64,000 bases of DNA from Fibrobacter succinogenes. GTDB taxonomy: Bacteria; Fibrobacterota; Fibrobacteria; Fibrobacterales; Fibrobacteraceae. The translations under genes were made by a program, and so were the position numbers. The notes under the pieces are model-generated. The model did not search any database and had not been told where the DNA came from. It was given only the letters and a program-made list of their open reading frames with translations. Location of the stretch: the NCBI GenBank assembly GCA_902800345.1, contig CADCDO010000013.1, positions 1 to 64,000 on the forward strand, read 5' to 3'. Numbering within the stretch: position 1 is the first letter of the stretch; each line of letters starts with the position of its first letter. Shown here in pieces: positions 32,528 to 33,893 of this stretch.

Positions 32528-33664
32528 ATGAAGACTTTCGAACTTTTAAAGACGTCCAAGAAGTCCAAGGCGCGCCTCGGGATCGTCCATACCGAACACG
32601 GCGATATCCATACGCCGATTTTTATGCCGGTAGGCACCGAAGCAACCGTCAAGGCGGTGACGCCCGCACAACTGCACGACATCAAGGCAGAAATCATTCT
32701 CGCAAATACGTACCACTTGTACTTGCGCCCGACAACGCCGAAGATTGCAGCCGCTGGCGGCATCCACAAGTTCATGAGCTGGGACGGTCCGGTACTTACA
32801 GATAGCGGTGGATTCCAAGTGTGGAGTTTGAAAGACCTTCGAAAGATTAAGCCCGAAGGCGTAGAATTCCGAAGCATTTTGGATGGTTCCAAGCACTTCT
32901 TTAGCCCGGCAAGCGTAATGAACGCCCAACGCGAAATCGGCGCGGACATCATCATGGCGCTCGATGAATGTACTCCTTACCCGAGTACGGTCAAAGAAGC
33001 AGAACACAGTCTGAATTACACGCTCCGTTGGACGGCAGAAGCGATGGAATGGCTCAAGGAGCATCCGCCGATTCACGGTTACAACCAGCAGTTCTTTGGC
33101 ATTATCCAGGGCGGAATGCACACGCACTTGCGCAAACAGGCGATCGAACGCATCGCGGAACTCAGCCCGGATGGCTACGCCATGGGAGGACTTTCCGTCG
33201 GCGAACCGACCGAGACCATGTACGAGATTGCAGACTTCTGCACAGACTACTTGCCGGAAGACCACCCGCGCTACGTAATGGGAGTCGGAACTCCTTGGAA
33301 CTTGCTCGAACTGATTGGTCGAGGCGTGGATATGTTCGACTGCGTAATGCCGACGCGCAACGCCCGCAACGGCATGCTCTTCACGAGCGAAGGCGTGCTC
33401 CGCTACAAGGCCGCCCGCCACGCCGAAGAATACGACAAGCCCGTCGATCCGAATTGCGACTGCTACTGCTGCCGCAACTTCAGCCGTGCCTACTTGCGCC
33501 ACCTGCACCACGCCGGCGAATCGCTCGGCTACACGCTCGCAAGCATCCACAATTTGCACTTTTACCTTCACCTCATGCAAGAAGCCAAGGACCACCTCGC
33601 CGACGATACGTTTGAAGAATGGGCGAAAGCAAAGTGTGAAATATTGCAACGCAACCTTGAATAG
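32528..33664 (+). CDS. tgt: tRNA-guanine transglycosylase
   Basis: 378 residues. Catalytic and binding blocks: T-D-S-G-G-F-Q-V (first catalytic Asp near residue 97), [29 protein letters not shown] (nucleophile Asp near 274 and RNA contact loop), and the zinc site C-D-C-Y-C-C with a later His. The enzyme swaps guanine-34 for preQ1 in queuosine tRNAs (Asn, Asp, His, Tyr). No other queuosine gene is adjacent. The final 15 codons are present a second time, with many synonymous changes, at 33846-33893. Confidence 0.96.
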
Positions 33665-33693
33665 TTTTTTGCATTTGGAAAAGGAGGGTCTGT

Positions 33694-33845
33694 GAGCAAA
33701 AAGCGACTAGTATCAACTAGTCGCGATTGCGAGAGAATCCGTCAAACATAACAGTTCTTATAAAATTAGACGGATTCGGTATTGGATTCGGAGGGCGAAG
33801 CCTTCCCTAGTCGTAGATGCCTTGCGATAAGCGAGGCATCGAACC
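33694..33845. other. Highly structured insert between two tgt 3' ends
   Basis: About 150 bp with successive inverted repeats: GCGACTAG/CTAGTCGC (loop TATCAA), AATCCGTC/GACGGATT, a GGAGGGC/GCCTTCC-like pair and GATGCCTTGC/GCGAGGCATC. Such a chain suggests a structured RNA or a small mobile palindromic element. It lies exactly between the stop of tgt and the duplicated tgt tail. No protein is encoded. Confidence 0.55.
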
Positions 33846-33893
33846 CAATGGGCGAAAGCTAAATGCGAAGTGCTGCAGAGAAATCTAGAGTAA
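33846..33893 (+). pseudogene. Second copy of the tgt C-terminal codons
   Basis: The frame reads Q-W-A-K-A-K-C-E-V-L-Q-R-N-L-E-stop, against [15 protein letters not shown]-stop at the real end of tgt. Most codons differ at synonymous positions (cgc/aga, ctt/cta, ttg/ctg and others), so the copy comes from a diverged tgt allele and is not a fresh tandem duplication. It has no start of its own and cannot be expressed as a protein by itself. Confidence 0.85.

Follow-up and report, generated by a model that had tools for sequence, protein, structure and literature searches.

Probable displacement of the tgt gene end in Fibrobacter by a foreign tail accompanied by a dispersed hairpin repeat

The window analysed here, the whole stretch of 64,000 nucleotides from Fibrobacter succinogenes (contig CADCDO010000013.1), contains a complete tgt gene for queuine tRNA-ribosyltransferase at 32528..33664 on the + strand (Pfam PF01702, TGT, E=2e-152), the protein of which is 98% identical to that of its closest named relative, Fibrobacter sp. 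RGIG5926. The gene uses tail 1 (33620..33664, +), which starts at a TGG codon and comprises the working last 14 codons and the stop TAG. Start to start 229 nucleotides further on lies tail 2 (33849..33893, +), read below as the displaced native tail, a second copy of the last 14 codons of tgt that encodes WAKAKCEVLQRNLE followed by a stop. The two tails share 74% nucleotide identity over 46 nt; 11 of the differing nucleotides fall in synonymous codons and 2 in the one non-synonymous codon, where the residue change is conservative. The preliminary description of this DNA had reported two diverged tgt 3' ends that differ mostly at synonymous sites, and this holds. Tail 2 is untranslated as far as is visible, and no ORF of at least 20 aa in the window reads through it in the tgt frame.

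The tails are separated by an insert of 184 bp, here called E (33665..33848, +), which is made of a purine-rich leader module TTTGGAAAAGGAGGGT, four hairpins, and the junction GAACCCAA, and which matches the R1 model at 33674-33814. Hairpin H1 (33703..33724, +) has 9 bp and the loop ATCA and covaries in 14 family members, H2 (33735..33777, +) has 9-bp arms at 33735-33743 and 33769-33777 that are partly covarying, H3 (33790..33806, +) holds the core palindrome GGAGGGC..GCCTTCC, and H4 (33816..33840, +), with the arms GATGCCTTGC and GCGAGGCATC, comes from sequence and fold. The insert folds with z = -6.4 against shuffles, none of 200 being as good, in agreement with the structured insert described earlier. 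Compensatory changes in an alignment of 14 long E copies back both H1 and H2 (97.1% of the alignment cells are paired and 24 are changed on both sides, versus 6.6 in shuffles), while H3 is nearly invariant and therefore uninformative for covariation. In a scan of 32200-34400 with Rfam 15 the tRNA alone reached the gathering score and E matched no family; hence E as a known RNA family was rejected. The insert has no ORF of 60 aa and hence no recombinase or integrase gene within its 184 bp. Viral contigs, phages, and plasmids yielded no relative of either the insert or the tail, and no free or attP-carrying copy of E or of the tail was found in these collections, so that a phage, plasmid, or viral origin of the insert was rejected as well.

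Other features of the neighbourhood are as follows. Three tRNA-Leu(GAG) genes are found close together at 29225-29308, 32067-32150, and 32360-32443, and the last two, leader and terminator included, resemble a tandem duplication of about 293 bp immediately before tgt. An inverted repeat around TTACGTCAAAAA (33919-33940 and 34134-34155) lies in the AT-rich sequence that follows tail 2, and a spacer like this AT-rich stretch is also present behind the tail in the genomes G063, G094, and G095. Further downstream, a secreted GH5 cellulase with a sorting tail (34294-37074, -) adjoins a GH9 enzyme (37214-39121, +). The genome of the window (G000) also carries a second tgt-like gene of 70% protein identity (G000:C24:42632-43759), and a similar gene is found in many genomes of the genus.

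The repetition of the tgt tail is not a matter of chance. Among 889 ORF ends in 864 kb from two genomes of the genus, a repeated tail ending in a stop at a real gene end was found only at both tgt genes, which scored 13/14 and 11/14 residues, whereas the shuffling of tails among genes reached at most 7/14 residues in 2667 trials. One other high match (12/14) was discarded as a shadow ORF inside a tandem tRNA-Leu copy. On the reverse strand of the joined stretch G000:C38, a 12/14-residue repeat is located 151 nt behind the end of an ORF at 36377-36764, with no stop after it. A degenerate pattern allowing up to 2 mismatches, applied to 80 genus genomes (one genome per species), found the tail in 76, of which 63 had one tail, 12 had two, and G015 had three; the reversed-pattern control gave 0, and the pattern was unmatched in G027, G032, G035, and G072. 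Two or more tails are thus present in 13 of the 80 genomes, several of them with few contigs, which rules out an assembly artefact. Every extra tail adjoins the first one, at a spacing of no more than about 234 bp in all 13 genomes, and no full-size element was seen. The spacers between the tails vary among genomes, and 63 of the 80 genomes show one tail; the case that the preliminary description had named as telling against it, the exact spacer of the window in all relatives, is thus not what was found.

The arrangement of E and the tails is likewise variable. In G034, G068, and G060, E is found behind a single tail without a second one. In G069 (L112 and L186, contig C76), the native single tail is followed some 300 bp on by 21 nt of tgt tail fused to E, and the join, with its short TTGC match, resembles an illegitimate junction. 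G014 has a second H3 behind tail 2. The locus of G015 (L164, contig C52) holds three tgt tails and two E copies, tails 1 and 3 being identical over 52 bp, and behind tail 3 lies an apparent E copy that has lost an internal piece between AGC repeats. The tgt-locus stretches were taken from 57 of the 80 genomes, with 23 not included; G015 was excluded from the counts on 11 or 12 genomes and G033 from the 11-genome tests of the main clade.

The DNA behind the tails indicates which of them is native. In G033, the DNA after tail 2 matches the DNA after the only tail of G069 (89% over 130 bp), and in G001 it matches that of G081 (85% over 164) and also the single-tail flank of G083 (89%, at an offset of 11 bp). 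In the window, the native downstream DNA (33894..34040, +) is 76% identical over 147 bp to the DNA after the only tail of the insert-free G095. None of the single-tail genomes compared (G069, G081/G083, and G095) has E at the matched point. As the flank of tail 2 is the flank of an insert-free single tail, tail 2 occupies the native position and tail 1 is the one that came in. The relatives with one tail and no insert that the preliminary description had suggested looking for do exist, and their tail runs straight into the DNA found behind tail 2 elsewhere; these three empty-site matches put tail 2 in its native context and favour the earlier proposal that an incoming tail pushed it downstream.

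Tail 2 also carries the signature of a coding sequence. Pairs of tail 2 among the 11 main-clade genomes differ on average by 10.5 nt but by only 2.11 amino acids, as against an expectation of 6.43 residues under neutral mutation (2000 simulations, minimum 5.78); pairs of tail 1 in the same genomes are 8.5 nt and 0.4 residues apart. The 15 pairs among six intact tail 2s of the RDLQ type show 3-12 synonymous and 0 non-synonymous differences. Together with the empty-site matches, this signature indicates that each lineage still used tail 2 as its gene end until recently. Tail 2 is decaying in 3 of the 11 main-clade genomes: G063 and G100 show an internal stop, and G094 a residue change. Tail 1 is complete throughout. 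Within a genome, tail 1 and tail 2 are 0.758 identical, and between genomes 0.749 (permutation p = 0.29, 11 genomes). Two tails from a single genome are thus no closer to each other than tails from different genomes, which speaks against a recent or simple duplication. The divergence of the tail alone, however, is no proof of foreign origin, because its silent sites change faster than those of the gene body even in species without the insert (0.45 vs 0.35, compared with 0.50 vs 0.25 in the main clade; G006 and G089 and the E-bearing G033, G015, G034, G068, G060, and G069 are excluded from these groups).

The ancestry of the locus is mosaic, and the edges of the shared unit could be mapped in nine genome pairs hand-picked for a common E type. 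In 8 of the 9 pairs, the identity that leads into E begins inside tail 1, at position 9-34 of 45, and in the ninth (G000-G085) the last mismatch sits in the stop codon. The tgt sequence immediately upstream of this left edge varies freely in the compared pairs; for example, the left part of E is 99% identical between G085 and G019, and the preceding 40 codons are 55% identical at third positions. Left edges were never found in the 1.1-kb gene body but only in the 45-bp tail, a confinement unlike free homologous recombination that leans towards a site-specific or circle route. Mosaicism also extends into the insert, as G071 combines a left half like that of G001 with a right half like that of G019. 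On the other side, the junction CCCAA precedes tail 2 in 10 of the 11 main-clade genomes. In six genomes, tail 2 follows CCCAA although their own codon ahead of the Trp codon, as seen at tail 1, is GAG, so that tail 2 must have received its first bases together with E.

Rank correlations with permutation (11 genomes, 45-nt tails, 16 tests, uncorrected) associate the 3' end of tail 1 with the left part of E (p = 0.023) and the right part of E with the 5' end of tail 2 (p = 0.025), and the 3' part of tail 1 accordingly seems to move along with the left half of E. Neither the gene body (p = 0.57) nor the downstream DNA (p = 0.45) correlates with the left part of E across the same 11 genomes. The right part does correlate with the downstream DNA (p = 0.001), which suggests more breakpoints in the middle of E; a correlation between the 5' part of tail 1 and the downstream DNA (p = 0.009) is without explanation. 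The exchanged unit is best read as the 3' part of a tail, E, and the 5' part of a tail, with crossovers in the tail as its probable bounds. As E is slow-evolving everywhere, little about recent transfer can be concluded from how nearly identical the copies of the short E type are.

E is not confined to tgt. An exact pattern of the H3 type is found in 38 of the 80 genus genomes, and a slightly longer exact pattern in 30 of 150 genomes of the phylum, all in this genus, while a covariance model of the long E has matches in 78 of 80 genus genomes (up to 40 candidates scored per genome). The copies of E or H3 are located at many gene ends, often as tandem arrays, and among these gene ends are those of what we take, from their flanks, to be gdhA and the RNase P RNA gene. 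Tandem arrays of these modules with units of about 118-161 bp are seen, for example, in L114, L115, L129, L137, L138, and L140. With an ORF called mechanically on each side and none across, 61 H3 sites divide into 26 convergent, 30 co-directional, and 5 divergent. When 69 regions containing H3 copies (L096-L164) were read for gene tails repeated on either side of E, tgt was by our reading the only case, and the other direct repeats were E modules or lay apart from E; tail duplication as a general property of E was therefore rejected. Hence E is a dispersed structured repeat and not one proper to tgt. Literature searches on Fibrobacter repeats, natural transformation, and recombination turned up nothing on the tgt-tail locus or the E repeat, and the family is apparently undescribed as far as the Rfam and literature searches reach.

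The reading preferred here, with a probability of about 0.62, is that the tgt tail was displaced through a crossover within the tail, with E as a passenger, by a unit from another Fibrobacter lineage. The incoming unit would consist of the 3' part of a foreign tgt tail, the hairpin repeat E, and the 5' start of a tail. Its entry by crossovers within the 45-bp tail would keep tgt whole and ending in the incoming tail 1, while the native tail would remain downstream as tail 2, untranslated and free to decay. E would be a non-autonomous passenger drawn from the genus-wide structured repeats at gene ends. The crossovers were probably ordinary homologous recombination, and the donor may have been linear DNA or a circle of tail and E formed between two tails. 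ComEC and DprA are present, but they are common, and their presence permits transformation without showing it.

In the main rival reading, which could also accommodate several findings, tail and E would be a very small non-autonomous cassette, or would be left over from a larger integrative element, and a recombinase in trans would insert them with the tgt 3' end as attachment site, as with e14 in icd. Left edges confined to the tail, an element-borne tail that leaves the protein nearly unchanged, the recurrent CCCAA junction, and the three-tail array of G015 all agree with such site-specific integration. However, the insert is without a recombinase and, like the tail, without relatives among viral contigs, phages, and plasmids; the tails are close together in all 13 genomes with no full-size element; the mismatch patterns between tail 1 and tail 2 give no clear sign of a constant identical core; and E modules occur at many other gene ends that have no copied tail. 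Site-specific integration is on this balance unlikely, and of the overall interpretation in the preliminary description, the displacement of the native tail is supported and the integrating element is not. It is doubtful, too, that tail and E form a minimal gene-free mobile cassette, about 140-230 bp long, that moves between Fibrobacter species by recombination at the tgt 3' end.

An old tandem duplication of tail and E, or an insertion with target duplication, followed by the divergence of both copies, is improbable. G015, with identical tails 1 and 3 and an apparently deleted third E behind tail 3, and G014, with its second H3 behind tail 2, are in its favour. Yet the tails of a genome are no more alike than those of different genomes, and an untranslated copy could not have kept the coding signature of tail 2 over such divergence; on the same two observations a target-site duplication or recent duplication was rejected, although G014, whose tails are nearly alike over their first 31 bases, would by itself fit such a model. 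The earlier dismissal of tandem duplication is sustained as far as simple duplication is concerned. The coding signature might instead mean that tail 2 is still used as an alternative tgt end, through readthrough, translational bypass, or rearrangement of DNA or RNA. This is highly improbable given the internal stops in G063 and G100, the changed residue in G094, the completeness of tail 1 in all genomes, and the lack of an ORF reading tail 2 in frame in the window.

The displacement of gene ends is already known from other genes. In the icd gene of E. coli, it is known for e14 and likewise for phage 21. For e14, the element-borne copy replaces the 3' end of the gene with mostly silent changes, and the displaced native end, icdC, is 165 bp long with 12 nt exchanges (PMC11148124, PMC6379469). 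Similarly, the end of tgt is restored by an incoming copy, the 3' end of tail 1 co-varies with the left part of E, and the native end is found on the far side, with three matches to empty sites in relatives. The e14 prophage, however, brings its own integrase gene, and its att sites are far from each other, whereas the tgt tails are spaced at 229 bp and enclose a hairpin insert of 184 bp that encodes no recombinase. With regard to an att core of the e14 type, the stretches common to both tgt tails are short and at varying places. In rhs genes, 3' ends are displaced downstream by laterally acquired ones, leaving arrays of dissociated tips, and homologous recombination with circular intermediates has been proposed (PMC2935791). 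At tgt, a foreign 3' end is likewise joined to the resident gene with the old end left downstream, but rhs tips diversify the protein, which the tgt tails, with their nearly unchanged peptide, do not. The T6SS immunity-gene arrays of V. cholerae arise by homology-facilitated illegitimate recombination, in which an upstream-anchored module pushes the old 3' gene downstream (PMC5361080). Those arrays involve whole genes and one non-homologous end, whereas both crossovers at tgt seem to lie within homologous tails. BOX, ERIC, and REP/RAYT are modular intergenic repeats, and E resembles them in being short, structured, dispersed, modular, and enriched at gene ends. It differs from the known modular repeats in having no Rfam family at the gathering score, and from REP/RAYT in that its own genome is without a Y1 (IS200-like) transposase, no PF01797 match being found there and matches being found in 5 of 14 genomes as a control.

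What is unusual at tgt is the small size of the displacement, its recurrence at one housekeeping gene in sister species, and its association with a family of repeats. If tail and E did constitute a mobile cassette, it would carry its own silent-site gene end along and leave the protein almost unchanged with each insertion; recognition or copying would act on the hairpin repeat, and tgt would serve repeatedly as a docking site. The locus provides a fossil record of gene-end displacement in which the native end is still readable and insert-free relatives are at hand for comparison. It indicates that homologous tails can delimit an exchanged unit even when they are very short, and it draws attention to a family of structured repeats across Fibrobacter genomes that is apparently undescribed.
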